A stretch of DNA of 64,000 nt from contig JAPLFY010000113.1 in the NCBI GenBank assembly GCA_026390435.1, forward strand, positions 1-64,000, given 5' to 3'. Positions within the stretch are counted from its first letter, which is position 1. Every line of letters starts with the position of its first letter. Shown in pieces: positions 1,174-31,753 of this stretch. The translations under genes were made by a program, and so were the position numbers. The stretch is from Pseudomonadota bacterium. GTDB lineage: Bacteria > Bdellovibrionota_B > Oligoflexia > Oligoflexales > CAIYRB01. The notes under the pieces were generated by a model, which saw only the letters and a list, made by a program, of their open reading frames with translations, made no database searches and had not been told where the DNA came from.

Positions 1174-4100
1174 TCACATAGACCGTCGGTACTGGCCACC
1201 AACTCGGTAAAGTGTGTTTACAATCTCGCCCAGACTTGCATGACGCACGGTGCTCATCAGCTCAGCAAAGATGTTGCCACCCTGCATCACGACTTGACTC
1301 AGATTGCGTAGCGCTTCTTCGCGACTTTCTTGCCGCGTATCTTTAAACGCTTGCAGGCGATCTAGCTGCTGATCCTTTTCATCGTAAGATGCGCGGATAA
1401 GCGGGATCTCGGGCCGTACGTATTCACCGCTCAGCACTTTTGGATTCAAGTAAGTATTCACGCCGATAATGGGCAGCTCGCCTGAGTGTTTCAGGCTTTC
1501 GTAGTGCAGGCTCTCTTCTTGGATTTTGGTCCGTTGGTACTGCGTTTCCATAGCTCCGAGTACGCCACCGCGACGGGAGATAGCTTCAAATTCTCGCAGT
1601 ACGGCCTCTTCTACCAAATCAGTCATGTACTCAATAAAATAAGAGCCCTGATTCACGTTCTGACAGAAGTTGGGGCCAAACTCCTGATTGATGATCATCT
1701 GGATGGCCATGGCGCGCCGCACACTCTCTTCTGTTGGTGTGGTGACGGCCTCGTCGTAGGCATTTGTGTGGAGTGAATTACAATTGTCGTACAGTGCGAG
1801 TAAAGCCTGCAGCGTTGTGCGAATGTCGTTGAAGTCCATTTCCTGGGCGTGAAGCGAGCGACCAGAAGTCTGGATGTGATACTTCAGCTTCTGAGAACGT
1901 TCATCCGACTGGTAGACATCGCGCATGGCGATGGCCCAAATGCGACGCGCAACGCGCCCCATCACGGCGTATTCCGGATCTAGGCCATTGGAGAAGAAAA
2001 AGGACAGGTTTGGCGCGAAATCATCGATCTGCATTCCGCGGGCTTTATAATACTCGACATAGGTGAAGCCGTTGGCGAGAGTAAACGCTAACTGGGTGAT
2101 TGGGTTCGCGCCGGCTTCGGCTATGTGATAGCCGGAAATCGAAACGCTGTAGTAATTGCGTATCTTCTTGTCGATGAAGTAGGACTGCACATCCCCCATC
2201 AATTTTAGGGCACATTCCGTCGAGAAAATGCAGGTGTTTTGCGCCTGATCTTCTTTCAAGATGTCGGCCTGCACGGTGCCACGCACGACCTGTAACGTCT
2301 GGTCGTAGATGTGGGTATGCTCGTCTGGGGTCGGCGCGCGTCCCTTTTCAGCATGGAACTTATCGATCTGCTGATCAATCGCTGTATTGAGAAACATCGC
2401 TAAAATGATGGGTGCAGGACCATTGATCGTCATGCTGACGCTGGTACTCGGTGAGCAGAGGTCGAAGCCGTTGTAGAGCATTTTCATGTCGTCTAACGTG
2501 GCAATCGATACCCCAGATTCACCGACCTTACCGTAAATATCTGGCCGTTTGTCGGGCTCGGATCCATAGAGCGTGACGCTATCGAAGGCGGTGCTAAGTC
2601 TCTTTGCGGGATCGTTCTTCGACAGATAATGAAATCTAGTGTTGGTACGAGCCGGTCCACCTTCGCCGGCGAACTGGCGCTTAGGTTCTTCCTGCTCGCG
2701 GCGGAAGGGAAAGACGCCGGCAGTGTAGGGAAATTCGCCAGGTACGTTTTCTTTTAATAGGAAGCGGAGCGTTTCCGCCTTACTTTCGGGAGACGGAAGC
2801 GCGATTTTGGGAAGTCTTTGTTGAGCGAGTGACATAAAAGTCGATTGGACCTTGATATCTTTACCACGGACTTTGTAGGTAAACTGGTCCGCCAAATACG
2901 CCGCGCGGATTTCGGCCCACCGCCCCAACTGGTCTTGCCGATGCGGATCAACATTCCGCCAAGCGACGGCCGCGGCGGCTTCTGTAGTATTTGCTTCTTC
3001 ATGATGTCCTATCTCCCGCAGATGCGTCGATGCAATATCGAGTGACTCAGCGGTGCGTGCAGACGCGATCTGCTCGGCACTGGCGGCGTGATAACGCCGC
3101 ACTGCGTGAGCAATCTCCGCTAAATAGTGAATTCTGTCATCCGGAATCAGCGCATCGCGGTTGCTGGATACGATGGAATACTGGCGATCTGCAGCCACTT
3201 GATAGCTACGGTCGCTGATCTTAGCGTTCAGTTTTTCTGCAAGCGCCCGATATAGCCCGTTAACTCCGTCGTCGCTGAAGCGGCTAGCGATGGTTCCGAA
3301 TACCGGATAATTCTCATCAGCAACGCGCTGGCCCTGGAATCTGGTACGACGAAGTTGCGTTCTCACGTCGCGCAGTGCGTCTGGTGCCTGCCTGCGCTCA
3401 AATTTGTTGACCGCAATGAGGTCGGCAAAGTCCAGCATGTCGATCTTCTCGAGCTGCGTCTGTGCCCCGTATTCGCAGGTCATCACGTACATAGAAATAT
3501 CAGCAACATCGACAATACCGGTGTCGCCTTGGCCAATACCACTAGTCTCGACGATGAGAAAGTCGAAGTCTTGACTGCGCATCACCTTGATTGCGTCCGA
3601 GGTGCTGCGAGCTAGTTCTCGCCCGGCGTCGCGCGTCGCTAGCGAACGAATAAAGACGCGTGGGTCGGCGGCAGAGTTGATGCGTATGCGGTCACCAAGC
3701 AGGGCGCCGCCCGTCTTCTTTTTCGAGGGGTCGATACATAAGAGACCTATGCGCACATCCGGAAAATCCCAGAGAAAGCGCATGATCAACTCATCAGTCA
3801 GTGAGCTTTTGCCGGCCCCGCCTGTACCGGTGATGCCGATGACCGGGATATTGGCGTAGCGTTTTTTGGGGTCGCCAATGATCTCGACCAGCTGCTGGGC
3901 ACTGAACTTACCGCTTTCGAGTAGGGTCAGGGCGCGCGCGAGCCTGGTTACCGGATTTGTCTGACGCTTACCCCAGTCGCCGTAGACGAAGTCGGCCTCG
4001 CACAGCATGTGGCCGATAATTCCATCTAAACCGGCGCGTTGGCCGTCTTCAGGGCTGTAGATTTTGGTGATGCCGAAGGCTTCCAGTTCGGCAATCTCGC

Positions 4101-4476
4101 GCGGTACAATCACGCCGCCGCCGCCGCCGAAGATCAAAACTTCAGTAGCGCCATTGGCATCGAGTAGCTCTCTAACATATTTAAAGAGCTCCATATGTCC
4201 GCCCTGGTAGGACGACAGAGCTACTGCTTGAGCATCTTCTTGAAGGACTGCCTGGACGATTTCAAGGGCGCTGCGATTGTGTCCTAAATGGACGACCTCG
4301 GCGCCGCGAGCTTGTAGTAGGCGTCGCATGATGTTGATGCTTGCATCGTGACCATCAAATAAAGCTGTGGCTGTGACAAAGCGGACTTTGTTCTTTGGGC
4401 TGTACACCGCGAGGTCTTGCGGTGACATTTCATTGAAGCGACGGCTGGCTGGCCCGACCGATTGCGAGGCGGACAT
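1174..4476 (-). CDS. icmF: Fused isobutyryl-CoA mutase with internal G-protein chaperone (IcmF)
   Basis: This adenosylcobalamin enzyme interconverts isobutyryl-CoA and n-butyryl-CoA. Three parts are visible in the order known for IcmF: an N-terminal B12-binding domain (DGHDASIN at about 41-48, with the cobalt-ligand His43), a MeaB-like GTPase with P-loop GITGTGGAGKSS (about 214-225), and the large mutase domain. PFRREQEEPKRQFAGEG in the mutase domain is the isobutyryl-type active-site segment rather than the methylmalonyl type (RPWTIRQYAG). Length, about 1100 residues, is normal. I start at ATG 4476 because GAGG lies 9 bases upstream; a TTG 15 bases earlier is in frame but lacks a ribosome site. 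It stands alone with no other branched-chain catabolic genes beside it, though etfBA lies 30 kb away. Confidence 0.93.
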   Translation of the reverse strand: MSASQSVGPASRRFNEMSPQDLAVYSPKNKVRFVTATALFDGHDASINIMRRLLQARGAEVVHLGHNRSALEIVQAVLQEDAQAVALSSYQGGHMELFKYVRELLDANGATEVLIFGGGGGVIVPREIAELEAFGITKIYSPEDGQRAGLDGIIGHMLCEADFVYGDWGKRQTNPVTRLARALTLLESGKFSAQQLVEIIGDPKKRYANIPVIGITGTGGAGKSSLTDELIMRFLWDFPDVRIGLLCIDPSKKKTGGALLGDRIRINSAADPRVFIRSLATRDAGRELARSTSDAIKVMRSQDFDFLIVETSGIGQGDTGIVDVADISMYVMTCEYGAQTQLEKIDMLDFADLIAVNKFERRQAPDALRDVRTQLRRTRFQGQRVADENYPVFGTIASRFSDDGVNGLYRALAEKLNAKISDRSYQVAADRQYSIVSSNRDALIPDDRIHYLAEIAHAVRRYHAASAEQIASARTAESLDIASTHLREIGHHEEANTTEAAAAVAWRNVDPHRQDQLGRWAEIRAAYLADQFTYKVRGKDIKVQSTFMSLAQQRLPKIALPSPESKAETLRFLLKENVPGEFPYTAGVFPFRREQEEPKRQFAGEGGPARTNTRFHYLSKNDPAKRLSTAFDSVTLYGSEPDKRPDIYGKVGESGVSIATLDDMKMLYNGFDLCSPSTSVSMTINGPAPIILAMFLNTAIDQQIDKFHAEKGRAPTPDEHTHIYDQTLQVVRGTVQADILKEDQAQNTCIFSTECALKLMGDVQSYFIDKKIRNYYSVSISGYHIAEAGANPITQLAFTLANGFTYVEYYKARGMQIDDFAPNLSFFFSNGLDPEYAVMGRVARRIWAIAMRDVYQSDERSQKLKYHIQTSGRSLHAQEMDFNDIRTTLQALLALYDNCNSLHTNAYDEAVTTPTEESVRRAMAIQMIINQEFGPNFCQNVNQGSYFIEYMTDLVEEAVLREFEAISRRGGVLGAMETQYQRTKIQEESLHYESLKHSGELPIIGVNTYLNPKVLSGEYVRPEIPLIRASYDEKDQQLDRLQAFKDTRQESREEALRNLSQVVMQGGNIFAELMSTVRHASLGEIVNTLYRVGGQYRRSM

Positions 4477-4540
4477 AAGCGAATACCTCAAACCCAGGGG
4501 TTATTAAGGGCTGGAGTGTAAATCAGCGCCGCCAAGCAAG

Positions 4541-5431
4541 TCAAAATTCTTTACGGAACCCCAGATGTAGGGTGTTGGTCACTAGTTTGTAGGAGCGGCT
4601 ACTGCTGTCTAGATTGCGTGCCGCAAGGCCGTAGCCACGGTATTCGCTGACATCAGCGATACTTACCTTGGCAATCTCGGTGTCGGCACCCATCTCCAGC
4701 CATACACCCGGCTGAAGCGGTATCAACGCGGCTGTGCCTCCTCCGGCTAACTTAGCGGTACTACCGGGGAAAAAGCTCCCTCCGAAAAAGCCACGCGGAC
4801 TGAATCCGAAATGAGCAATCGGGGCGTATTCCCCTCTGATTTCCCAGCTATATTTGCTGCGACTGAGTCGCATGCGGCCCGCGACGAGCGCAGCATTGAT
4901 GAAGTGCGATTCCGAGGTGTTGTTAAATCCAGTGCGGCGCAATTCGATCTGACCGGTAGAGACCAACTTATAATTGCCAAATCCCTCAGTCCGCACCACT
5001 GCAGAGCTTAGGTCGAGGCGCGAGTAGCTTGCATCTGCGGTGCCAGCCGCACCGGTGGCAGCACCCATCTTCATGCCAGTAAGCTCAAATACGCGCCAGC
5101 GCCAGCTACCACTGGCGTTTGTATCGAAGCCCAGAGAGCCGTAAATTGGCAAGCCCATATGAGTGAGATTTTCGGCTGCATCGGTCGTGCCATCTGCACG
5201 GACACCAGTGCGCCGATTCATCGGTACTTGTATGTCCTGAAACGATCCGACACCGCTGCCAACGGTAACGAAAACCCCAGTCGGTTGTTTTTCGGTCTTT
5301 AAGATCGGACCTAGTCCCAGAGCCTCTAAGGCCTGATAATTATCTACATCCTGGGCATTAGCGACAGATGGTAGGCAAATCAAGGCAGCAATAAAACACG
5401 CTGGAACAAGGCGGCTCACGGTCAACTCCAC
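4541..5431 (-). CDS. Secreted, outer-membrane-like protein of unknown function
   Basis: A 296-residue protein with a clear Sec signal peptide (hydrophobic core LVPACFIAALICLPSV, cleavage after ANA at about residue 26). The mature part is rich in Gly, Ser and alternating hydrophobic residues and ends in LHLGFRKEF; a terminal Phe after an amphipathic strand is the beta-signal recognised by the Bam complex. I therefore expect an outer-membrane beta barrel, but recognise no family. It lies 64 bases upstream of icmF on the same strand and may share a transcript, although no functional link is evident. Confidence 0.7.
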   Translation of the reverse strand: MELTVSRLVPACFIAALICLPSVANAQDVDNYQALEALGLGPILKTEKQPTGVFVTVGSGVGSFQDIQVPMNRRTGVRADGTTDAAENLTHMGLPIYGSLGFDTNASGSWRWRVFELTGMKMGAATGAAGTADASYSRLDLSSAVVRTEGFGNYKLVSTGQIELRRTGFNNTSESHFINAALVAGRMRLSRSKYSWEIRGEYAPIAHFGFSPRGFFGGSFFPGSTAKLAGGGTAALIPLQPGVWLEMGADTEIAKVSIADVSEYRGYGLAARNLDSSSRSYKLVTNTLHLGFRKEF

Positions 5432-5564: not shown

Positions 5565-7505
5565 TTATTTTATGGCGGCGCGTCGCGACGGCAACCCCCC
5601 GTCAAATTTATAGGCACTTGCAGGATGTGGTTGCGTGGACTTGGCCGCATCTGCCCCCTCCTGCGAGGTCGGAGCTGAGCGCATGAAGGCTGCCCAAGCT
5701 CGGCTCGTTTCGGCCACGGCTTCAGCATGAGTCACAGCTACCTTGGCGCTGCCGTGTTCTGCGCCTAGCCAAAGTGTGCTGACTACCGTCGGTGTGAGAC
5801 CAACAAACCAAGCGTTGTGTAAATCCTCTGTCACTGCGGCCATGCCTGCAGCTAGCGGTGATACGCCTCGAGCACCCTTGGCGTGACCTTCGGCAATGGC
5901 ACTGCGCAAACCGCTGAGAACAGCCGCAGCTGTTGCTGTGGTCATCGCCGGTTCCGATTGATTAGGTAAATATTGGTAGATCAACTGACCGTGAGCATCG
6001 ACGATGCGCTCTATGAGGTACGGCGAGATCAACTGACCGCCGTTAATGAAGGCGGCGAAAGCAACGGCGGCTTGAGTCGGGGTAGCGCTGCCGCTACCAA
6101 TGGCTAAGCTAAAGTCGCTGGGGCCAAATTGTAGACCTAAGCGCCGCGCAAAGTGCCTAACTGAACCTTGGCCGAGTGCCGCGAAGAGTGGCACGCCTGC
6201 GGAGGCATCGCCGCTCCTTAAGAGTTCCACTAGAGTTGGCATGCCGCTATCACCGAGCGATTTCTCGGTGGGAATTTTCTCGTTGGCGAGGGGATCATCA
6301 CCTACGCGACTGTCCAATCGGTAACCACTCTCTAGAGCTAAACCGACATATATGGGCAGAAATAAGGCCCCGAGTGGTCGCTTAGTCGCTGCGGTGCGAT
6401 TGAATTGAGTATCTTGAAAGGTGCCGCCTCCTTGCATGGCAAGGATTGCGCCGCTGCGAGGGTCGATGCTTACGAGCGCCCCTTGTAACTCATCACTGGG
6501 ATTTTTTAGCTTCGATGTTGCCTTGCGTTCTTTGCGCTGCGCTTCTCGAATAAGCCGTGCTAACTCCCTGTCAGCAGAATTTTGCAGGTTGGAATCTAAA
6601 GTCGTATAAATTTTTAGACCCTCCCGCGCAAGGGCTAGCGTGCCGAATTTACGGCTGAGCTCTTGTGCTACGGCGCCTATGAAATACGGTGCTGTTTGTG
6701 AGTAGTCTTCGGGGCCGCTAGCGACTTCAACTTTTTGCTGAGCCCACATAGTTGCCGTCGTCCGGGTGATGTAGCCATCCTCACTTAAACGAGCAAGGAT
6801 CACGCGTTGACGTTGCTCTGCGACGGTTCTGTGTTTGTGAGGTGCATAAGCTGTTGGGCTTTTTGCCAGTCCTGCAATGAGTGCAGCCTCTCCGAGGTTG
6901 AGTTGCCGCGCGTGTTTGCGAAAGTAGTTGCGCGCCGCAGCTTCCACGCCGTAGCTACCGTTTCCCAGGTAAATTTTGTTTAGATAAAGCTCTAAGATCT
7001 GATCTTTAGTTAGGCGTCTTTCTATGGCAACAGCCAATACAGCTTCCTTCGCCTTGCGTTGCCAAGTTTTACTTTGGTCCAGGAAGTACAGCCGAGCTAG
7101 CTGCTGCGTGATAGTGCTAGCCCCTTGCCTTACCCGTCCGCCACGAAGGTTCACTAGCGCCGCGCGCAAGATCGCTGATGGGCTGATACCGAAGTGATGA
7201 TAGAAGTCTTTATCTTCTGCACTTAAGAAAGCCTGGATGACCGATTTAGGTATCTGTTCCAGACGTAGATAAAAGCGACGCTCGCCCGCAAACTCGCCTA
7301 TTTTGTTGCCGTTGCGGTCAAAAATTTCTGTGGCGAGCGCATCGGCGCTTTGTGTCAGGAGATTTATCTGCTGTACTTGGACTGCAATACTGTCGCGAAT
7401 CTGCAGTGTGTATAGCGCACCGGCAAGAGCTGTGGTGATCGATAGCACCAAGCCAAAGGCTAAACTGACGCCGAATATATTTTTACTAAAACTGGGGCTA
7501 GGCAT
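5565..7505 (-). CDS. Class A penicillin-binding protein: intact glycosyltransferase, degenerate transpeptidase
   Basis: A 646-residue PBP1A/1C-like protein anchored by one N-terminal membrane segment (about 9-35). The GT51 glycosyltransferase domain, which polymerises lipid II, is complete: SAEDKDFYHHFG with catalytic Glu97, GASTITQQLARLY (128-140) and LNKIYLGNGSYGVEAAA (175-191). The transpeptidase domain is recognisable and full length, but the active-site motifs are gone. Where class A PBPs read (R-Q-P)-G-S-x-F-K-P, this has RPLGALFLP (376-384), losing both the nucleophile Ser and the Lys. The K-T-G-T-T box is replaced by AAGMAAVTED (552-561) just before the conserved AWFVGLTP. So it can probably make glycan strands but not crosslinks. 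Confidence 0.9.
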   Translation of the reverse strand: MPSPSFSKNIFGVSLAFGLVLSITTALAGALYTLQIRDSIAVQVQQINLLTQSADALATEIFDRNGNKIGEFAGERRFYLRLEQIPKSVIQAFLSAEDKDFYHHFGISPSAILRAALVNLRGGRVRQGASTITQQLARLYFLDQSKTWQRKAKEAVLAVAIERRLTKDQILELYLNKIYLGNGSYGVEAAARNYFRKHARQLNLGEAALIAGLAKSPTAYAPHKHRTVAEQRQRVILARLSEDGYITRTTATMWAQQKVEVASGPEDYSQTAPYFIGAVAQELSRKFGTLALAREGLKIYTTLDSNLQNSADRELARLIREAQRKERKATSKLKNPSDELQGALVSIDPRSGAILAMQGGGTFQDTQFNRTAATKRPLGALFLPIYVGLALESGYRLDSRVGDDPLANEKIPTEKSLGDSGMPTLVELLRSGDASAGVPLFAALGQGSVRHFARRLGLQFGPSDFSLAIGSGSATPTQAAVAFAAFINGGQLISPYLIERIVDAHGQLIYQYLPNQSEPAMTTATAAAVLSGLRSAIAEGHAKGARGVSPLAAGMAAVTEDLHNAWFVGLTPTVVSTLWLGAEHGSAKVAVTHAEAVAETSRAWAAFMRSAPTSQEGADAAKSTQPHPASAYKFDGGLPSRRAAIK

Positions 7506-17908: not shown

Positions 17909-18274
17909 ATGAGTGATTCTTTGAACAAAGAAATATCCAATAGACGAGGCAACCGTGCCGTAATCCTGCCCAAGACTAAGCGCCATCTTGCGCTTATGGG
18001 GGAGGGGTTGAAATTGGCTCGCCTACGCCGGGGGTGGTCGGCGGAAAATCTAGCCGTTCGTGCCGGAGTCTCTCGCGGCACACTACTTGCCATTGAAAAA
18101 GGGTCGCCTAGTGTCACCATGGGACATTATGCGGCGGTATTATTTGCATTAGGTTTGGATAAAGATCTCGCTTTGCTCGGTAGTCAGGACGAGGAGGGCA
18201 GGCGCCTGCAAGACATGAACCTGACGCGCCGTGCCACGCGGCGCAAGAAGAAGAATGGGCCGCATGAGGTATAA
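17909..18274 (+). CDS. hipB: HipB-like helix-turn-helix antitoxin
   Basis: A 121-residue protein with an XRE/Cro helix-turn-helix: KLARLRRGWSAENLAVRAGV then SRGTLLAIEKGSPSVTMGHY, about residues 34-73. The N-terminal 30 and the basic C-terminal 25 residues (RRATRRKKKNG) extend beyond the domain. It precedes and overlaps hipA by 11 bases, the standard antitoxin-first arrangement. It should repress its own promoter through the palindrome upstream and hold the kinase inactive. ATG 17909 has no clear Shine-Dalgarno; an internal ATG at Met30 is a possible alternative start. Confidence 0.85.
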   Translation: MSDSLNKEISNRRGNRAVILPKTKRHLALMGEGLKLARLRRGWSAENLAVRAGVSRGTLLAIEKGSPSVTMGHYAAVLFALGLDKDLALLGSQDEEGRRLQDMNLTRRATRRKKKNGPHEV

Positions 18275-19523
18275 GCCGCACAGTATCTTTGTTTTTGCTG
18301 ATTGGGCCGCACTCGGGAGCCCTAGGCTCATAGGGACTCTGCATGTTGGTTATGTTAGAGGCAAAGAGGTGCCTTGGTTTGAGTACAGTGATGCCTGGCT
18401 CAAAAGTGGCCTAGCATTGGAATTTGATCCGGAATTGAAGCCACTGCGCGACAAGATTTACCCGGCGCAGGGATTCTTTGGAGCCTTCGCCGATGCGTCG
18501 CCGGATCGCTGGGGTCGCAAGCTTATGCTTCGCCGTGAAGCCCGGCAGTCTAAGAGCGAGGGGCGAGCCGCAAAATTACTCACCCAGGTAGATTTCTTGC
18601 TTGGTGTTGATGATTTCGCCAGAATGGGAGCTCTACGTTTTAAGAATGACCTGGATGGGCCATTTCTTGACGCTGGTGATCAAGGTGCTTGCCCACCATT
18701 GACCGAGCTTCGCGCTCTGCAGCACGCGTCCTTGATGATTGATAGCGATGACGAGCGCAAGGTGGACGCAGCTCTGAAGCTGTTGTTGCGTCCTGGTGGT
18801 TCACTTGGGGGCGCACGGCCCAAGGCAAACGTGATCGACCCTAGTGGTGCTTTGTGGATTGCTAAGTTTCCTAGCGATGCCGATGATCATGATATCGGTG
18901 GATGGGAGGAGCTGACGGCTCAACTAGCACGCGGTGCCGGCATCGACGTAAGCAGGTCCAGGGCGGAGAAGCTTGGTGGGCACCGACACCATACTTTTCT
19001 GACGGTACGCTTTGATCGCGAGGGTCCGAGGCGACGTTTGCTTTACGCATCTGCTATGACACTTTTAATGAAGCGCGACGGCGAAAGTGAAGACTGCAGT
19101 TATCTCGACCTGCTGGAAGTACTGGCGCAAAAGGGCGCGTCACCGAAGCGAGACTTTCCCGAGCTTTGGCGCAGAATAGTCTTTTCCGTTTGCGTCTCCA
19201 ATTCCGATGATCATCTCAGAAATCATGGCTTTCTTTATGACCACGTCCACGGGGGCTGGGCCTTGGCACCTGCTTTTGATCTTAATCCAAATCCGCACGC
19301 CACCGGTCTGACTTTAGCCATTGACGAGCACGATAACGCACTAAGTCTCGATCTAGCTATGACAGTAGCGCCGTATTTTCAAATGACCGCAGCTACTGCT
19401 AAGGAGACCATGGAGCACATCAAAAAGTCTGTTCGTGGCTGGAGGACTATTGCTAAAAGATTACACCTTAAGCCATCGGAGTGTGAGTTGATGGCTGAGG
19501 CATTCGAGCGAGACATCAAGTAG
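18264..19523 (+). CDS. hipA: HipA-family serine/threonine kinase toxin
   Basis: The 419-residue product starts at ATG 18264, overlapping the hipB stop; an in-frame GTG 33 bases upstream adds residues with no homology. Family motifs in order: FADASPDRWGRKLM (N-terminal subdomain), the glycine-rich GGSLGGARPKA, the VRFDR segment, the catalytic loop SNSDDHLRNHGFLY (N-x-D-D-H-x-x-N) and the metal-binding APAFDLNPNP. In E. coli HipA phosphorylates glutamyl-tRNA synthetase and induces dormancy; other HipA-like kinases have other targets. All catalytic positions are present. Confidence 0.9.
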   Translation: MRYKPHSIFVFADWAALGSPRLIGTLHVGYVRGKEVPWFEYSDAWLKSGLALEFDPELKPLRDKIYPAQGFFGAFADASPDRWGRKLMLRREARQSKSEGRAAKLLTQVDFLLGVDDFARMGALRFKNDLDGPFLDAGDQGACPPLTELRALQHASLMIDSDDERKVDAALKLLLRPGGSLGGARPKANVIDPSGALWIAKFPSDADDHDIGGWEELTAQLARGAGIDVSRSRAEKLGGHRHHTFLTVRFDREGPRRRLLYASAMTLLMKRDGESEDCSYLDLLEVLAQKGASPKRDFPELWRRIVFSVCVSNSDDHLRNHGFLYDHVHGGWALAPAFDLNPNPHATGLTLAIDEHDNALSLDLAMTVAPYFQMTAATAKETMEHIKKSVRGWRTIAKRLHLKPSECELMAEAFERDIK

Positions 19524-21967: not shown

Positions 21968-24790
21968 TCAACTCAGGACCAAACCCGCAGGTAAACTTTC
22001 TCCAAAGAGCAGCATCTTAGCCTCGGTATCCACCGGGACGAATTCACGCACCAAGCGCATCTGTTCAGCGCTGGCACCAGTCTCGCCCAGTTTAGCCAAA
22101 AACTGTCCGCGTGCGGCATCGGATAAATCGTACTCGCGGTCTCCAATCATCCGTCCAGCCTGCGTCAAGAACAGCGAGAGTTTGCTGAACGCGGCATCAC
22201 CGCGGTTGATCTTTTTCAGTTCATCAAACCAGCCCACGACTAGTTCGGGGCGTGCGATAGTATGCGGCCCACCGTAAAGTGGGACGCGACTGGCAATGCG
22301 AGCTAAGGCCCACATGCGTTGATTGACGAATTTTTGTCTGCCGGCTGCTAGCTGTTGCGTTAGATGCTGCCCGAGGCGAATTTTCTGCATCATGTCGACC
22401 CGCTCTAGCGATCCAGCCAATAAATACAATTCCGGCGAGGCATCATCTTTGCGCAGTGCGGGGAAGATACGTTCAAAGAGCTGTTCTTGTTGCTCGCGCA
22501 GAAGTCCGCCAGCCACTCGGCGCCACATGATCCACCACTGCTCTTCTGCCTGCTTTTCTTTGGGAAAGCTTAGGCCTTGTTGAAAGCAGCGCCACAGTTC
22601 TTGCGTGCGCCATTCGTCAAGTTCGCAGCCATACCCAGGGCGCAGGCTATACCCTGCAAGGTATAACCATTGAGTCTCATGATTTAATGAACGGCCGCGG
22701 CGCGTCATCCCTGTGGCTAAATGTGGCCATAGCCCGCGCAGTAGCGATGTGTCCCAGTCCTCGCGAGGTGCACCGAGGGTGTCTTCTAAATCTTTGACTA
22801 AATTTTTGGGCGCGCCTAGTTGCTCGTCGCGCCTCTTCTTGCCGTAAAGTGTGTCCAGCTTATCGACAGCAATAGCAATTTTATTGGCGGGAAAACGACT
22901 CGTCGCCAATTTTGCCGATGCCGCGGGCGTTGCCGTCTGGGAGCGAGCAGACGCACCCCGCACATTAAAATCAAGCTGCCAACGCTTTACGTTAGTTTGA
23001 TCAAATTGATGAACTAAATAAAGACAGAGTAGTCCCGTCTCTGCCACTGACGTTTCAAGCTGCACCGAGATGAGCTTGTCATCCTTCTTGCCGGCAAGAT
23101 CAATGCGCGTATGCAGTGGGGGTAGGGGGTGGAAGCTGTCTCGGCTGGCAACACCGGCAACGACTATATCGCCCAGATGATCATCGGCTCTTGTCGTTGA
23201 GGTAAATAACTGGAAGCGTACCGGGGAGTCAGCGCGTAGCTTCAGGTCTAAACTGTCTAGTTTGAGCGGGGTAACACCGTCGTAACCTTTGGGTACGATG
23301 CACATTAGGTTAGGGCCTGTAACATCACCACCTTTGTCTTTATCAGCAACATCCACTTCGACATAAACCGAACGCGCATAACCGCCCTTGATCAGAGCCT
23401 CTGGCTGATGCCGCAAAGCTGCATAATGTGCGGCACCAAGGGCAACGGCTAGATCCATGTCGGCACTAGCTAGCACCACTGGCTCAGATCCATTTTGCCA
23501 CTCAGTAATTTGCTCTAATAAAGTGCGGCGCAGAATGGCTGGCCTTAGCGTGCCACCATTGAAAAGCACTGCATCAATCTGATGATTGGCAACAAACTGC
23601 GCAATATGGCGGGTGATAGCACCGTCTTGCGCATAGGGCAGGCCAAGTTGAGTCAGTCCTTGGCGTTGACGGCGGGGCACGTCTGTCGCTGCAGCTAGCG
23701 GGAAAAATCCAGAGACCACAAGGTCTCTGATTTCTGCGCGGCGCAAACTCGCGGTGCGCGCAGTCGCCATCAAGCTGGAGCCCTCACCAGCGATGGAGAC
23801 AAATAGTTCTGCATCTAGTTCTTCATCGGAATTGGTAGCCGCCGCATCGGCGCTTAAGGCGCTCTCTTTGAGTTGCCGCGTACCAAAGGCCAGTTGTGCC
23901 CATTCGCGCGAGGACAGGCGATTGCCATCGCCAACAAGCTTATGCTCAAGCGCGTGCGCTAGACTCAAATCGATATTGTCGCCACCTAGTAGCAGATGTT
24001 CACTAACGGCAACTCGGGTAATGTCTGGCTGTCCCTGTGGTCTTGGATCGACTCGAAATAGGCTGAAATCGCTAGTGCCGCCGCCGATATCGACGATCAG
24101 GACGTTAAATGCTTCTGCCTTCGGTAAGTCGTGGCGGCCGTTTAGCCAATGATAAAAAGCAGCCTGCGGCTCTTCCAGTAAACGCACTCTTTCGGCGGGG
24201 TATCCCGCCTGCATGGCTGCCGCGAGCGTTAACCCTTGTGCCGCCTCATCAAAGGAAGCAGGTACCGTAATGACGATGTCTTGCTCTTCGAAGCGTGCAC
24301 TTGCTGCATCTTTTGCTACGAGTAGATTCCAAGCTTCACGAAGATGCTGTAGGTATGCCGCAGAGACCTCGACTGGTGATCTGCGTTCATCGCCGACTAG
24401 GTCACCTACATGCCAGGGCAAAATGCGTTCTTCCCGGTCAACACCGTCATGACATAACCAAGACTTTGCCTGGTGAATCACGCGACCCGGCACCTGGCTG
24501 CTCTGCCAACGCGCAAATTTGCCGACAACAAAATCTGGCAGAGACCCTTCGGCGTGCTGAGGTAGAGCGAGCTGACCGCGCCTCCATTCCGACTTGGGCG
24601 GCAGGTAGTAGTACGAAGGGAGCGTCGGCGCCCTTACTACGGAACCATCACTCTCCCACTGAGGGATTTCTAATACCTGCGTTGGACTGCCATGCGCGCT
24701 TAAATCAACATAGGCCAAGGCGCAGTTAGTGGTGCCTAGGTCGATGCCAATAGCGTAGCGTGCACGTGATCCCGAATTAATGTTGTTCAT
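21968..24790 (-). CDS. Hsp70-family protein with long C-terminal DUF3731-like region
   Basis: A 940-residue Hsp70 relative. The N-terminal nucleotide-binding domain has GIDLGTTNCALAYVD (phosphate 1), DIGGGTSDFSLFRVD (phosphate 2) and VLFNGGTLRP. Instead of a DnaK peptide-binding domain and lid, it continues with a long helical region (from about residue 620) rich in Trp/Arg, which I assign to DUF3731 from family knowledge. The gene overlaps the upstream Hsp70-family gene by 14 bases and is last of the three-gene operon DUF2760-Hsp70-Hsp70. Such proteins are not the housekeeping DnaK; no DnaJ or GrpE is nearby. Client and cellular role are unknown. Confidence 0.85.
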   Translation of the reverse strand: MNNINSGSRARYAIGIDLGTTNCALAYVDLSAHGSPTQVLEIPQWESDGSVVRAPTLPSYYYLPPKSEWRRGQLALPQHAEGSLPDFVVGKFARWQSSQVPGRVIHQAKSWLCHDGVDREERILPWHVGDLVGDERRSPVEVSAAYLQHLREAWNLLVAKDAASARFEEQDIVITVPASFDEAAQGLTLAAAMQAGYPAERVRLLEEPQAAFYHWLNGRHDLPKAEAFNVLIVDIGGGTSDFSLFRVDPRPQGQPDITRVAVSEHLLLGGDNIDLSLAHALEHKLVGDGNRLSSREWAQLAFGTRQLKESALSADAAATNSDEELDAELFVSIAGEGSSLMATARTASLRRAEIRDLVVSGFFPLAAATDVPRRQRQGLTQLGLPYAQDGAITRHIAQFVANHQIDAVLFNGGTLRPAILRRTLLEQITEWQNGSEPVVLASADMDLAVALGAAHYAALRHQPEALIKGGYARSVYVEVDVADKDKGGDVTGPNLMCIVPKGYDGVTPLKLDSLDLKLRADSPVRFQLFTSTTRADDHLGDIVVAGVASRDSFHPLPPLHTRIDLAGKKDDKLISVQLETSVAETGLLCLYLVHQFDQTNVKRWQLDFNVRGASARSQTATPAASAKLATSRFPANKIAIAVDKLDTLYGKKRRDEQLGAPKNLVKDLEDTLGAPREDWDTSLLRGLWPHLATGMTRRGRSLNHETQWLYLAGYSLRPGYGCELDEWRTQELWRCFQQGLSFPKEKQAEEQWWIMWRRVAGGLLREQQEQLFERIFPALRKDDASPELYLLAGSLERVDMMQKIRLGQHLTQQLAAGRQKFVNQRMWALARIASRVPLYGGPHTIARPELVVGWFDELKKINRGDAAFSKLSLFLTQAGRMIGDREYDLSDAARGQFLAKLGETGASAEQMRLVREFVPVDTEAKMLLFGESLPAGLVLS

Positions 24791-26684
24791 GGGCTCTTAA
24801 GTTGAATTCTAGGTTCCATTTGCGACCTGAGGTCGTGTCCTTCATATAGACTTGCAGCATGCCCATTTCGTTAACGACAGCATCTAGGCTTACGGGGATG
24901 ACTTTACCCTCGTTCTTGCTCTCGCTCTCGCCATCAGATTTGAGTGTGAGGCTGAGTTGAGCGTTTTCATCTAAGCTATGCGCCGCGTCATCGACAACTG
25001 TGCCGGGTTTGTCACCAGCACGCACGGTAGAGGAGAAAAAGCGGAACTCTACGGGCTCACCAATGACGAGACCAAATTGCTGATCTTTAAGCTCGATCTC
25101 GGTCCCCTCATCCGTTCCCTGAGGCACTAGACAAAGCCCGCGCACTTTCGGTTCGATACCGGGTACTGCGGGTGCGACTTCTTCTAGGCCAACGTAATAA
25201 GAACGCGCAGTGCCACTCTGTACTCTGATGCCGCGCCCTGTGCTGCGCAGTTTTCCGTAGTAGGTGGCGCCACGTGCTACGGCCAGGTCATAGTCAGCGC
25301 CCGTTAGTTCTTTAACACTGCTACCGCTCCAAGTGGAAAGTAGCTCAACAATGCGTTGGCGTAAGGCCGGAGCTCGAAAAACACCGCCATTAAACAGCAC
25401 TGCTGTCGGCAGTAGTGCTTCGTTTTGCAGGTTAGCCCCGACTAACGTTTGTAGCTGCGGATTGGACGCTACATTTTGTGCGGAGCGACGGAGGAAGCGA
25501 GCCAAGTGTCTGCTGATGGCCGCATCACTTTCGTAATGTAGGCCAAACTCTTGAATGCCGGCTGACCGTCTGGTCTTTGGCATTTCGTCGAGTCGTGTGC
25601 GCGGGAGAAAACCCTCGACGATAGTCGACAAGACTTGTGCGCGTGTGAGCTCCGTAGTCACTGTTCCTGCGAATAGACTAGAACCACGACTAGCGACTGC
25701 GATGGGGAGCGACGTGAGGTCTTCGCTGATTAGTAGACGCTCTTTAGCTGAGCGAGCAGCTGCGACTAGTGCGAGAAATTGCCAGTGATCGACGCTACGT
25801 CCCTGTGCTTCGAGCTGCTGCTTTAGTCCATAAGCAAGCGCCAAGTCCATGTTGTCGCCACCGAGCAGCAAATGCTCGCCAACGCTAATACGTTCAAGAT
25901 GCAACTGGCCTTGGTCCTCGCCGACAGCAATCAAACTAAAGTCGCATGTGCCGCCACCGACATCACAGACAAGGATGACTTCGCCGGGTTGCACTTGCTT
26001 GCGCCAGTCGCGACCATTTGCGTCTAGCCAGGCGTAAAATGCGGCCAATGGTTCTTCCAGAAGTACCGGGTCACCAAGGCCAGCATCGCGTGCCGCAGCA
26101 TGGGTCAGTGCTCGTGCCACTTCGTCAAACGAAGCCGGTACGGTTAATACTACCGTGCAGTCAGCGGCACTGACGTTCTCGCCAGCGTTTTTGCGGTCAT
26201 TAACGAAGGCTGCGCCTAGGTGCTCCAGATAACGCTTTGATGCTTGGACAGGAGAACACTTGCCTTCAGTAATCTCGGATCGCCACGGTAGCAATGCGGC
26301 TTGCCGGTCAGCTTGGCTGGCGCAGAGCCAGGATTTAGCGGATGACACAACCCGATCGGGCACTTCGGCACCCCGGTCACGAGCCCACTTACCAACTAGG
26401 TTAGCTATGCTAGGAACGTTACTTTGCCCATCACTCGTCCATGGCAACTGCGCTGCCGCGCTCGCGAGCTCACCGCTATGTGGAATGTAGAGGAACGACG
26501 GCAGGGTGGTTTGGCTGCCAACTTGTCCCGGTCCAAACACCTGCGGAATCTCTAGCACCTCGACCCTCGAATCAGCCCTAGATTCAGTCGATTCTAGGGT
26601 CGATTCTATTTTGCTGTAGGTCAGAGCTGAGTTGGTTGTGCCTAAATCGATGCCGACTACATATGGGATCTGCTTGTCAGTCAC
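24777..26684 (-). CDS. Hsp70-family protein (YegD-like)
   Basis: A 635-residue Hsp70 relative with GIDLGTTNSALTYSK, VCDVGGGTCDFSLI and LFNGGVFRAP marking an intact nucleotide-binding domain. The C-terminal 120 residues form a short beta region but I see no canonical helical lid. A 20-residue insert near the N-terminus, IESTLESTESRADSRVEV, lies between the first phosphate loop and the conserved VLEIPQ; its DNA is a small cluster of GAATC(G) repeats (26565-26612). It is the middle gene of the DUF2760-Hsp70-Hsp70 operon; the paralogue downstream shares order and motifs, indicating an old duplication. Confidence 0.86.
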   Translation of the reverse strand: MTDKQIPYVVGIDLGTTNSALTYSKIESTLESTESRADSRVEVLEIPQVFGPGQVGSQTTLPSFLYIPHSGELASAAAQLPWTSDGQSNVPSIANLVGKWARDRGAEVPDRVVSSAKSWLCASQADRQAALLPWRSEITEGKCSPVQASKRYLEHLGAAFVNDRKNAGENVSAADCTVVLTVPASFDEVARALTHAAARDAGLGDPVLLEEPLAAFYAWLDANGRDWRKQVQPGEVILVCDVGGGTCDFSLIAVGEDQGQLHLERISVGEHLLLGGDNMDLALAYGLKQQLEAQGRSVDHWQFLALVAAARSAKERLLISEDLTSLPIAVASRGSSLFAGTVTTELTRAQVLSTIVEGFLPRTRLDEMPKTRRSAGIQEFGLHYESDAAISRHLARFLRRSAQNVASNPQLQTLVGANLQNEALLPTAVLFNGGVFRAPALRQRIVELLSTWSGSSVKELTGADYDLAVARGATYYGKLRSTGRGIRVQSGTARSYYVGLEEVAPAVPGIEPKVRGLCLVPQGTDEGTEIELKDQQFGLVIGEPVEFRFFSSTVRAGDKPGTVVDDAAHSLDENAQLSLTLKSDGESESKNEGKVIPVSLDAVVNEMGMLQVYMKDTTSGRKWNLEFNLRAHEQH

Positions 26685-28080: not shown

Positions 28081-28875
28081 TCATGTTTTGCGGCGATTGA
28101 CGCTGGTTTCATAATCCGCCAGCAAGCGGCGGAAATTATCCGCGCGTTCTTTGATCTGGGCAGCGGTCATGGTCTTGAAATACAGGTTTTTATCACTTGC
28201 AGGATCTTTGGCTTTTGCCTCAGCGACATAATCAAGAGCCTTGATGCCGTAGCGCAATGCCTCGATTCTTAAATCGTCGTATTCGCCAAATTCATCAGCT
28301 AACTGAATCGCAACGAAAGCACAGGCATGATAAATCTCTTGCTTGCAGTAAAAACGGGCGACAAAGAGGATACTCTCCGCTACCCGGCGCTTACCTTTGG
28401 CGACTAGGTCTCGAGCTTGCTTGGCATAGGGACTGTCTGGCATCCGCTCGATGAGCTTCTGCCATTCTCTGATCGCCTTCTGGGTGTATTCTTGTTCCCG
28501 GTCAACTTCATCCGGTGCATCCTTCCAGTAGCTCTCACCAATTTGGAAGTAGGCATAGTCTACTTTGGGGTGCTTCGGGTGTAATTTGGCAAACTGCTCA
28601 TAAGCAAGAGCAGCTTCGGTATAATGACCAAGCTCAAACTGGGAGTTGGCGATCAACAGGTCAGCCTCGGCGGCAAACTTGCTGTAGGGAAAGCGAGACT
28701 TGAATTCGCCCAGGCGCTGAAGGGCGATCTCATAATTCTCATCATCGTACGGTCCTTTGGCGATGCCGAACGACTTTTGCGGATCATTCGGATCAAACTC
28801 TTTCTCAGAGCACGCCGTCAGAAATAAGATGTAAGCTATCGTACAGACAAAAGGAACTAGTGACTTTCGCAGCAT
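28081..28875 (-). CDS. bamD: Outer-membrane assembly lipoprotein BamD
   Basis: The 264-residue lipoprotein starts at ATG 28875 (AAGGAG 8 bases upstream); lipobox FLTAC precedes a TPR-rich protein. PYDDENYEIALQRLGEFKSRFPYSKFAAEADLLI and the following repeats match the BamD/YfiO TPR array. BamD is an essential part of the Bam complex that inserts beta-barrel proteins in the outer membrane, from the periplasmic side. The quoted stretch spans the first TPR (about residues 43-76). Confidence 0.9.
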   Translation of the reverse strand: MLRKSLVPFVCTIAYILFLTACSEKEFDPNDPQKSFGIAKGPYDDENYEIALQRLGEFKSRFPYSKFAAEADLLIANSQFELGHYTEAALAYEQFAKLHPKHPKVDYAYFQIGESYWKDAPDEVDREQEYTQKAIREWQKLIERMPDSPYAKQARDLVAKGKRRVAESILFVARFYCKQEIYHACAFVAIQLADEFGEYDDLRIEALRYGIKALDYVAEAKAKDPASDKNLYFKTMTAAQIKERADNFRRLLADYETSVNRRKT

Positions 28876-29084
28876 CTGCGCAACTCCTTGCAATCAACAG
28901 GCTTCAAAAGGAAGCAAAATTGCCGATACTATGAATATGCAAAGGCTCCCTTTTCATAGCGCCGCGGACGTTCCTGACGTTAACCTACGTGTGGGCGCTA
29001 CCGCCAATCATTTAAATGGATTGGCCCAAGATTGATGAGTTAAATCGGCCGACTTGGATCTTGTACCCCCTAAGGACACTTTGA

Positions 29085-30083
29085 GTGACGAATCAAGAAC
29101 GCAACGAAGCGGGCGGTGGTGAGCCAGGAATCTGGCGCCGGGCGCAGCGGCATTATTGGCTGGTGATTTTCGCCATTCTGCTGCTTTCATTGCTGATTCA
29201 CGTCCTTTCTGTGGTGGAGCTGGGGCATCATCAAGCACACAAGTCGCACCTGCCGGTAGTGAAGCAGGCACCGGTGAAATTTCACGTCACGCACCAGCCA
29301 AAGCGGCCTGCAGCGAAAAAGAGTCCGTTGGAAAAGCCGACAGAGCCAGATTCGATGCCAAAGATCTTGGAGGCGCCTCAGACCAAGACCGAGCGGCCCG
29401 AGCGCGCCGACTATGCCGGTACCGTCAATCACAAGACGACCAAAGAAACACGCCTCAGCAACAAGCTCAAGCGCGAGAAGGCGGCCGATGCCGGCCAGAA
29501 GGGCAAGCCGGACGTGGCCGAGGCGCGCCAGGCCGGGCCTGAATCGCCGGCACGTCCTGAGGCCACGCCGCAGCCGCTACAAAAGCTCAAGCAAAGCGAG
29601 AGTCGGTTTAAGAGCCGGGCGGGTAATTTGGCAGTCGATGCCTTTCAGCCAAAACCGCGCAATATCTACGAGGCCTTGCTGCCGACGGGGGCAGCTGATT
29701 TGCCTGGGCAGATGACTGCTGGCTACCAAGATTTTGTCGACGAAAAGGTGACAGAAGGTGACCGCATCGACATTAATACCTCGGAGTACCGCTACATCGG
29801 TTACTTTACCAGCATGCGTAAAGCGATTGAGCTGGTGTGGAACTATCCCCTCGATGCTGCCCGTAAAGGCGAGCAGGGCGAGGTTGGATTGGAGTTTATC
29901 ATCGGTAAAGATGGCCACGTGACGCAGGTGCGTGTGCTCAGGTCTTCCGGCTACTTGATCCTCGACCAGGCGATCATGGAGGCTATTAAGCTGGCTTCGC
30001 CCTTTTCCCCGTTACCTGATGGCTTTGGCAAGAGTCGACTGGTGGTGACGGGCTCGTTCCGCTACATTCTGAACGGTCTTTAG
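29085..30083 (+). CDS. TonB-family energy-transducing protein
   Basis: A 332-residue protein starting at GTG 29085 with AAGGA 8 bases upstream. One membrane helix near the N-terminus (WLVIFAILLLSLLIHVLSVV, about 24-43), a long Pro/Lys/Ala-rich periplasmic spacer (about 70-180), and a C-terminal TonB domain: GEVGLEFIIGKDGHVTQVRV and a final beta strand. TonB transmits proton-motive force from ExbBD to outer-membrane receptors; some homologues serve other energised processes. No ExbBD or receptor lies beside it, so it might be a stand-alone paralogue. GC-rich spacer DNA reflects the Pro/Ala content. Confidence 0.85.
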   Translation: MTNQERNEAGGGEPGIWRRAQRHYWLVIFAILLLSLLIHVLSVVELGHHQAHKSHLPVVKQAPVKFHVTHQPKRPAAKKSPLEKPTEPDSMPKILEAPQTKTERPERADYAGTVNHKTTKETRLSNKLKREKAADAGQKGKPDVAEARQAGPESPARPEATPQPLQKLKQSESRFKSRAGNLAVDAFQPKPRNIYEALLPTGAADLPGQMTAGYQDFVDEKVTEGDRIDINTSEYRYIGYFTSMRKAIELVWNYPLDAARKGEQGEVGLEFIIGKDGHVTQVRVLRSSGYLILDQAIMEAIKLASPFSPLPDGFGKSRLVVTGSFRYILNGL

Positions 30084-30259
30084 GTCTCGAATTCAAATTA
30101 TCAACATCTTGATTTAATTGATATTTGTTATAAATTGGCAGAAAAAATCTGTACATTTTTTGCACAGTGGTTATAGTCCGGGCCTTGTCGGTTTGGTCCC
30201 GAACGCGGTACGCTAGACCTTTAAGCCTTAAATTTCTCCCACGAAGGACCCGCCATCTC

Positions 30260-31753
30260 TTGACCCGCTGGCACTCCATCTTTATTTCTTTGTCGCTCTT
30301 GACCACTTGGAGCTGCGCCTCATTTGAAGCTGAGGTGCCCGAGCGTGATCACGACAGCGAGCCAGTGGCAGTAGGCACAAGCGCCGGCGATGGTAAGCAT
30401 TTTACCCTGAAAGACGTTGCTGACGTCGAGTCCGATGACGTTGGGGACCGCGAAGTCGCCGACGCAGACGATGGCGATCGTGAGGCCAATGACGACGATG
30501 ACGAAGACGATGATGAGAGCTTGGCGGACGTGGTCGAGGATTTCGAAGAGGGTTTTTGTGCCGACGACATCTACGCTCAGTATTTAATGGAACGTTACCG
30601 TGCCGAGCACACTGGGCATAAGTTATCAGAGGGCAAGACCGAAAAGCGCAGTAGCCGCTCTCGCCGAAATCGCCGGGAAGATGCCCGCTATTTTAAAAAT
30701 CACTCCAGCTTCGCGGCACTTGCCTATGCCCATTCCGTAATGGCTGGCCCGACCTCACCTTACCTAGGTGCCATCCCCATCGTCATCAACGACAAGGTGG
30801 ATTTTTGGGTTCATTACTTCAAGACATCTGGTCGCGGCATGTTTATGCGTTGGTTAGTCCGCGGCGAGACGATTAAGCCCCAAGTGCAGCCGATATTGCA
30901 GGATAGCGGCGTGCCGATGGAGTTCTTTTACCTGGCGATGATTGAGTCAGGATTGAGCAACCACGCTAATAGCCGAGCCCGTGCCATTGGAACTTGGCAG
31001 TTTATGCGCGGTACAGCCAAGCTCTATGGTCTGAAGATCAATCACTGGGTGGACGAACGCCGCGATCCAACCAAGTCGACGCTGGCTGCAGCCCGGTATC
31101 TCAAGGAACTCTATCTTGAGCTCGGTGATTGGCACCTAGCTATGGCTGCATACAATGCTGGTCCTGGTCGCGTCCGTCGCGCCATAAAAACCAATGGTAA
31201 CGCGGATTTCTGGAAGCTTTGCGAAGACCGCGTCCTGGCCAAAGAAACTAAAGAATACGTACCTAAAGTGCTGGCAGCCATTTTGTTAGCTGCCGATCCG
31301 GAGGCTCACGGGTTTAGGGTCCATTCCACCGAGGTAGCTGACGCTGCCGATACGACCGTTCTCATCAAGCGTCCTGTTCGCCTAGACGAGATAGCGAATC
31401 GCTTGGGCTTATCGCTGAGGACCTTGAAAAATTGGAATCCAGAGCTCCTCCGCAATATGACACCGCCAACCCGGGGTGGTTATCCACTGCGGCTAAGCGC
31501 TGCTTATGCCAGCCGCTTCCCGCAGCTTGAGCCTCGCCTTACTACTGCGGATATTAAAAGTGTCGGTATGCACACGGTCCGTAGTGGTGACACATTTGGC
31601 CGAATTGCCCGTCAATATGGTATTCCGGTTAGGCAATTAATGGAGCTGAACCCAGATGTTGCCGCGAAAAAGTTGAAGCCTGGTGTCAGTATCCTCGTCC
31701 CAGCCATCGAAACTGTCTCGACAGTCAATGCCGGTAATCCAGATCTGCTCTGA
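30260..31753 (+). CDS. Membrane-bound lytic transglycosylase, MltD-like, with LysM
   Basis: I start at TTG 30260 (AAGGA 11 bases upstream), which gives the lipoprotein signal IFISLSLLTTWSC; a GTG 93 bases earlier is in frame but adds an unlikely leader. After an acidic stretch (about residues 55-95, run DDDDEDDDE) comes a GH23 SLT domain: catalytic Glu in MIESGLSNHANS, then AIGTWQFMRGTA and AMAAYNAGPGRVRRAI. A degenerate LysM-like segment and a clear LysM (HTVRSGDTFGRIARQYGIP) end the protein. The enzyme cuts glycan strands with 1,6-anhydro ends, at the inner face of the outer membrane. Adjacent TonB gene, same strand, 176 bases away. Confidence 0.87.
   Translation: MTRWHSIFISLSLLTTWSCASFEAEVPERDHDSEPVAVGTSAGDGKHFTLKDVADVESDDVGDREVADADDGDREANDDDDEDDDESLADVVEDFEEGFCADDIYAQYLMERYRAEHTGHKLSEGKTEKRSSRSRRNRREDARYFKNHSSFAALAYAHSVMAGPTSPYLGAIPIVINDKVDFWVHYFKTSGRGMFMRWLVRGETIKPQVQPILQDSGVPMEFFYLAMIESGLSNHANSRARAIGTWQFMRGTAKLYGLKINHWVDERRDPTKSTLAAARYLKELYLELGDWHLAMAAYNAGPGRVRRAIKTNGNADFWKLCEDRVLAKETKEYVPKVLAAILLAADPEAHGFRVHSTEVADAADTTVLIKRPVRLDEIANRLGLSLRTLKNWNPELLRNMTPPTRGGYPLRLSAAYASRFPQLEPRLTTADIKSVGMHTVRSGDTFGRIARQYGIPVRQLMELNPDVAAKKLKPGVSILVPAIETVSTVNAGNPDLL

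Follow-up and report, generated by a model that had tools for sequence, protein, structure and literature searches.

Class A PBPs are regarded as enzymes with two cooperating activities, and a non-catalytic role of their transpeptidase (TP) domain is hard to study, given that the available mutants are artificial. In E. coli, PBP1c (PbpC) represents another subfamily than the protein described here, and it retains its SxxK motif. It was proposed as a class A PBP for conditions needing extra glycosyltransferase (GT) activity (PMC6131605), and the equivalog score of our protein for this subfamily lies far under the cut-off. The TP-dead E. coli PBP1b(S510A), on the other side, polymerises lipid II and functions in cells, and wall synthesis in E. 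coli can be kept up by such a TP-inactive class A PBP together with partners (PMC5089857, PMC6428754). We liken the natural protein described here, in which the TP active site is erased (hence pseudo-TP), to PBP1b S510A accompanied by YcbB or LdtD, where the GT is active and there is no DD-transpeptidase activity; GT activity would be the shared part. In contrast, S510A is an engineered point mutant, whereas the loss in the pseudo-TP protein is natural, ancient, extends to all three TP motifs, and shows no link to an L,D-transpeptidase. Our searches, which covered the open-access literature, returned no natural class A PBP family whose TP site is erased, and within that scope the novelty of this one is provisional.

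Motifs and predicted fold of the window protein

The window, that is, the whole stretch of 64,000 nucleotides analysed here (contig JAPLFY010000113.1, order Oligoflexales), comes from a draft genome of 153 contigs. The pseudo-TP gene reads from an ATG at 7505 down to 5565 in a frameshift-free ORF (Table 1), and the earlier description of it as a full-length gene therefore stands; promoter and terminator scans of the sequence gave no signal above chance. The protein shares its topology, its GT51 domain, and its TP fold with the PBP1A-type class A PBPs (TIGR02074), and it matches that model over its whole length with 457.7 bits, but the cut-off of 508.75 is not reached, the SxxK, SxN, and KTG motifs are lost, and the protein is shorter. 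MtgA (TIGR02070) has GT51 activity only, which the pseudo-TP protein would in effect share, but MtgA has no TP-derived domain, which is extra in our protein, and the score of 145.6 bits also remains under the cut-off of that model (182.65).

Table 1. Coordinates of the pseudo-TP gene, its domains and motifs, and the neighbouring genes of the conserved block in the window
Feature	Position	Strand	Basis
Whole gene, PBP1A-lineage class A protein with pseudo-transpeptidase, 646 aa	5565..7505	minus	ORF and translation
Predicted N-terminal membrane anchor, about residues 11-31	7413..7475	minus	Hydrophobic stretch; helix 4-47 in AlphaFold model
GT51 peptidoglycan glycosyltransferase domain, residues 66-240	6786..7310	minus	Pfam Transgly PF00912, 218 bits, E 7.6e-65; motifs intact
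E97 codon, first catalytic Glu of GT51	7215..7217	minus	Invariant in pseudo-TP family and intact-PBP alignments
E154 codon, second conserved GT51 Glu (RKxxE)	7044..7046	minus	Invariant in family alignment; 48/49 intact PBPs
Pseudo-transpeptidase domain, residues 342-573	5787..6482	minus	Pfam PF00905, AlphaFold, Foldseek
Erased SxxK: ALFL, residues 380-383, at start of helix 379-392	6357..6368	minus	49-PBP alignment
Erased SxN: GDA, residues 432-434	6204..6212	minus	49-PBP alignment
Erased KTGT: MAAV, residues 555-558, on strand 553-558	5832..5843	minus	49-PBP alignment
Secreted outer-membrane-barrel-type protein (by eye), downstream gene	4541..5431	minus	No Pfam match
IcmF-type (presumed family name) fused acyl-CoA mutase gene, downstream block marker	1174..4491	minus	Block map
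bamD	28081..28893	minus	Sole BamD match in genome; about 20 kb displaced from pseudo-TP gene
TonB-like gene, divergent from bamD, block member	29085..30083	plus	Block comparison
MltD-like lytic transglycosylase gene, block member	30167..31753	plus	45% identical to G007 SLT+LysM protein

Both of the catalytic Glu residues of the GT51 domain are present, and E97 is, by its motif, what we take to be the equivalent of E233 in E. coli PBP1b. The GT51 motifs as a whole are kept (E97, GASTITQQL, RKxxE with E154, and KxxILExYLN), as the earlier note had claimed, and they are likewise invariant in 21 of 21 profiled relatives and kept in two further divergent ones (G008 and G034). A TP fold follows C-terminally to GT51, with the PF00905 model exceeding its cut-off of 22 at 44 bits, and it is in this second domain where the SxxK, SxN, and KTG motifs are missing. 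As a reference we used an alignment of 49 intact class A PBPs from many phyla, in which S380, K383, S432, N434, K555, G557, and T558 (numbering of the window protein) are found in 49/49 sequences and T556 in 46/49. At the columns S380, K383, S432, N434, K555, T556, G557, and T558, the residues of the window protein are A, L, G, A, M, A, A, and V. The alignment with these homologues upheld the two lesions noted earlier, in the SxxK and KTG boxes, and it added a third one, in SxN; no intact SxxK or KTG was found at another place in the TP domain. None of the 21 profiled members of the family keeps K383, N434, K555, or T558. On the other hand, TP positions that are invariant in intact PBPs and belong to the fold are kept by the family, namely G359 (20 of 21 members), R376 (21), P384 (20), W566 (20), and G581 (21). 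The pattern of the family, as read from these alignments, is one of a retained fold with the catalysis dropped.

The structural prediction points in the same direction. The AlphaFold model of the window protein has a mean pLDDT of 85.4, mostly 80-94 in the TP block except for a loop at about 400-420, and helix alpha2 (379-392) starts at the expected SxxK site while strand beta3 (553-558) lies at the expected KTG site; the input alignment consisted mostly of intact PBPs, which could bias the model toward the canonical fold. The top Foldseek match was E. coli PBP1b (E 3e-31, TM 0.68), and S. aureus PBP2 was also matched (TM 0.70). The TP domain is thus predicted to still adopt the TP fold. Given that the fold and part of the groove remain, the domain might work as an enzyme by means of other residues, but across the family none of its Ser, Thr, Cys, Lys, or His residues shows strong conservation, which among polar residues is confined to R376, N369, R370, Q367, and D348, and we regard such an alternative activity as very improbable.

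Distribution, origin, and selection of the pseudo-TP family

Genes with the GT51 motifs kept and all TP motifs lost were found in all six genomes of the genus, with 50-93% identity, and also in other taxonomic families of the order, in at least 22 other species altogether. In a profile search, the family appeared in 21 of 43 genomes of the order, always with 569 bits or more, and the next-best proteins were intact PBP1A with 479 bits at most; as the profile was built from the same 21 members, this gap separates the family from intact PBP1A and leaves further members possible. G008 and G034 were the two members added to these 21, assigned by gene order, tree, and motif loss, and the former is a divergent protein of 567 aa. 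The window protein belongs to this family, as it keeps the GT51 motifs and the TP fold, has lost all three TP motifs, and falls in the one clade. Most proteins of the family fall 50-100 aa short of the length of the order's intact PBP1A. About half of the genomes of the order have no pseudo-TP gene, and the gene is therefore dispensable. In the sister families f12 and f13 no member was found, only intact and longer class A proteins among those sampled. A search at the level of the phylum comprised sequences of this one class. Two kinds of candidates were rejected, namely G054 (L133), an intact PBP1A cut by a contig end, and proteins of 837-874 aa from the sister families that match in the GT part alone, all of which were intact among those sampled. 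Separately, a 580-aa relative in a genome of 1.8 Mb (L255:5590-7329, G037:C39) shows degradation of its GT51 motif STITQQ as well as of its TP motifs; it is possibly a fully inactive member and was left out of the family count.

The draft state of the genome brings up the question of a sequencing error, an assembly chimera, or a recent pseudogene. A gene 93% identical and with the same lesions exists in an independent genome (L037), which excludes an error of sequencing or assembly, and besides the ORF is intact and constrained, with further relatives across the order that also have no TP motifs. This explanation, to which we gave next to no credence, was rejected by the independent orthologues and by the dN/dS values.

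In the GT-domain tree the family formed one split, with an SH-aLRT of 93 for 21 members (apart from the mislabelled L133) and of 89 for 23 members. With 21 members the UFBoot was 89 and the split was present in 93% of the bootstrap trees, in a tree that left out two long-branch rows, the outside protein L038 and the giant PBP L137. The family split was broken when L038 was included, and for this reason a single origin is likely and not proven.

Regarding selection, the dN/dS of the G000/G002 pair was 0.032 for the GT domain and 0.131 for the pseudo-TP domain, with 0.033 for the TP domain of the intact PBP1A of the same pair, and that of the G001/G003 pair was 0.060 and 0.074 for GT and pseudo-TP, respectively. 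A dN/dS of 0.07-0.13 means that the pseudo-TP domain is constrained, by purifying selection in both genus pairs, and in one of them less so than an active TP. It could be that the GT is the sole useful part of the protein and that the TP domain is passively eroding toward a monofunctional glycosyltransferase. The TP domain does evolve faster than the GT domain in most pairs (65% vs. 81% identity in G004/G005), the short divergent G008 protein exists, and PF00905 is matched in only 11 of the 21 members, which indicates that the domain is still eroding in some lineages. However, the dN/dS values are far below 1, all 23 confirmed members keep the TP-derived domain despite an identity of 26-40%, the 21 profiled ones share the fold residues, and a truncation would be easy, yet none is seen in confirmed members; furthermore, the TP of the intact PBP1A also outpaces its own GT in one pair. 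Passive erosion is, in our judgement, rather unlikely. The same altered version recurs in those many other species, usually in one conserved neighbourhood, and this gives the gene the look of an ancient redesign retained by selection, not of a gene in decay. The proposal that selection keeps the pseudo-transpeptidase is hence favoured by the constraint on the domain, by its conservation across the order, and by the conserved gene order.

Gene neighbourhood

The conserved order of the locus is bamD-PBP-OMP-murJ-icmF, where the identities of BamD, TonB, MltD, and MurJ were checked with curated models in G007, whose BamD homologue matches TIGR03302 with 159 bits. In the taxonomic families f2, f3, f7, f8, and f9, the pseudo-TP gene has bamD immediately upstream in the same orientation, and most of these families also have the TonB-like and MltD genes close by, in divergent orientation. 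The murJ gene is near the pseudo-TP gene in f2, f6, and f11, and icmF is downstream in f1, f2, and f11. Each genome with a BamD match has only one. The outer-membrane-type (OMP-like) protein of the window has a homologue in G007 (21% identity, E 6e-9), and the G007 copy follows the orthologous PBP. The icmF marker is also present in G004, G005, G007, and G023, and in G016 it occurs without the PBP. In genomes with an empty slot there is no space for a PBP, as the gene immediately after bamD is the OMP-like one in G015 and G021, and murJ in G016. In the window itself the block is split, with PBP-OMP-IcmF at 1-7.5 kb and the BamD, TonB, MltD, and Etf genes at 28-36 kb; the location still fits the bamD-murJ-icmF block, since PBP-OMP-IcmF is kept and the displaced bamD is on the same strand.

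These neighbours raise the idea of the pseudo-TP domain as a docking module that would tie glycan polymerisation to outer-membrane assembly via the BamD or TonB-like proteins encoded next to it. We hold this specific version to be unlikely; if true, docking to BamD or to the TonB-like protein would give the TP fold of a class A PBP a defined task other than catalysis. In any case, the bamD neighbourhood suggests a connection of wall synthesis with the assembly of the outer membrane that can be tested.

Some other genes of these regions were recorded in passing. Three genomes of genus g9 have members of one family of 800-aa proteins encoded directly after the pseudo-TP gene (L205:9043-11442, L211:2029-4386, and L212:9195-11654), with no clear Pfam or NCBIfam assignment for the one member scanned. 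In the window, two adjacent Hsp70-family ORFs of 940 and 635 aa (21968-26684, minus strand) and a HipA-like kinase ORF (18231-19523) were recognised by eye.

Wall enzymes of the same cell and the proposed division of labour

An intact class A PBP elsewhere in the genome was among the checks proposed beforehand, and it was found: the window's genome has an intact PBP1A (L002), as does every genome carrying the pseudo-TP gene. The same genome also encodes a giant class A PBP of 1302 aa with intact motifs (L137:850-4755, G000:C85), additional GT51 proteins, including a separate short one (L005), two more strong transpeptidase proteins resembling class B PBPs (664 and 611 aa), and one YkuD protein (G000:C150). 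In the giant PBP nearly 490 residues separate SxxK and KTG, and a single protein of 1100-1340 aa that matches in its GT part occurs in most genomes of the class.

The YkuD protein has to be considered, given that the earlier note had also suggested a partnership with an L,D-transpeptidase. The pseudo-TP protein would then be a dedicated polymerase for a wall with 3-3 cross-links, as TP-dead PBP1b is with YcbB or LdtD in the E. coli precedents (PMC5089857, PMC6428754). Nevertheless, in most genomes of the order the number of YkuD proteins is about one, irrespective of whether the pseudo-TP gene is present, G009, G017, and G024 carry the gene with no YkuD match, and no YkuD gene was recognised in the neighbourhoods inspected. 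The YkuD counts do not track the gene, and this partnership, left unsupported, appears quite improbable.

From the observed loss and retention of motifs, the predicted fold, the selection, the distribution, and the gene order, we consider it probable that this member of the PBP1A lineage polymerises glycan and is blind to beta-lactams, with a folded and inert TP kept as a structural or docking part while the cross-linking is made in trans by other PBPs, and that the loss of its active site predates the diversification of the order. In this division of labour, the membrane-anchored GT51 domain would polymerise lipid II into uncross-linked glycan strands. The folded but dead TP domain would neither cross-link peptides nor be acylated by beta-lactams, no binding of which is expected because the Ser that is acylated has been replaced by Ala. 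Under purifying selection, the inert TP may position the GT domain and dock cell-wall or outer-membrane proteins, and cross-linking of the strands in trans would fall to the cell's intact PBP1A and giant class A PBP together with its class B PBPs. A single loss of the active site would have preceded the radiation of the order, in a gene placed between bamD and murJ, and some lineages would later have lost the whole gene. If so, evolution has removed the catalysis and kept the fold across an order, beside an intact PBP1A, and this provides a natural system for the non-cross-linking roles of the TP domain, as well as a natural glycan polymerase that beta-lactams should be unable to acylate.

Two further proteins encoded in the genome (G000:C26) carry GT51 matches. 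In one of them (L138:1537-3501), a long N-terminal region, AsmA-like by eye, ends in GT51, and the genus and family f8 have more proteins of similar size (705-754 aa). The other one (L256:915-3980, 1022 aa) has a weak and divergent GT51 match of 61.6 bits together with intact TP-like motifs (GSTAKL and KTGTG), and it is possibly a mirror case, with the GT half being the degraded one.
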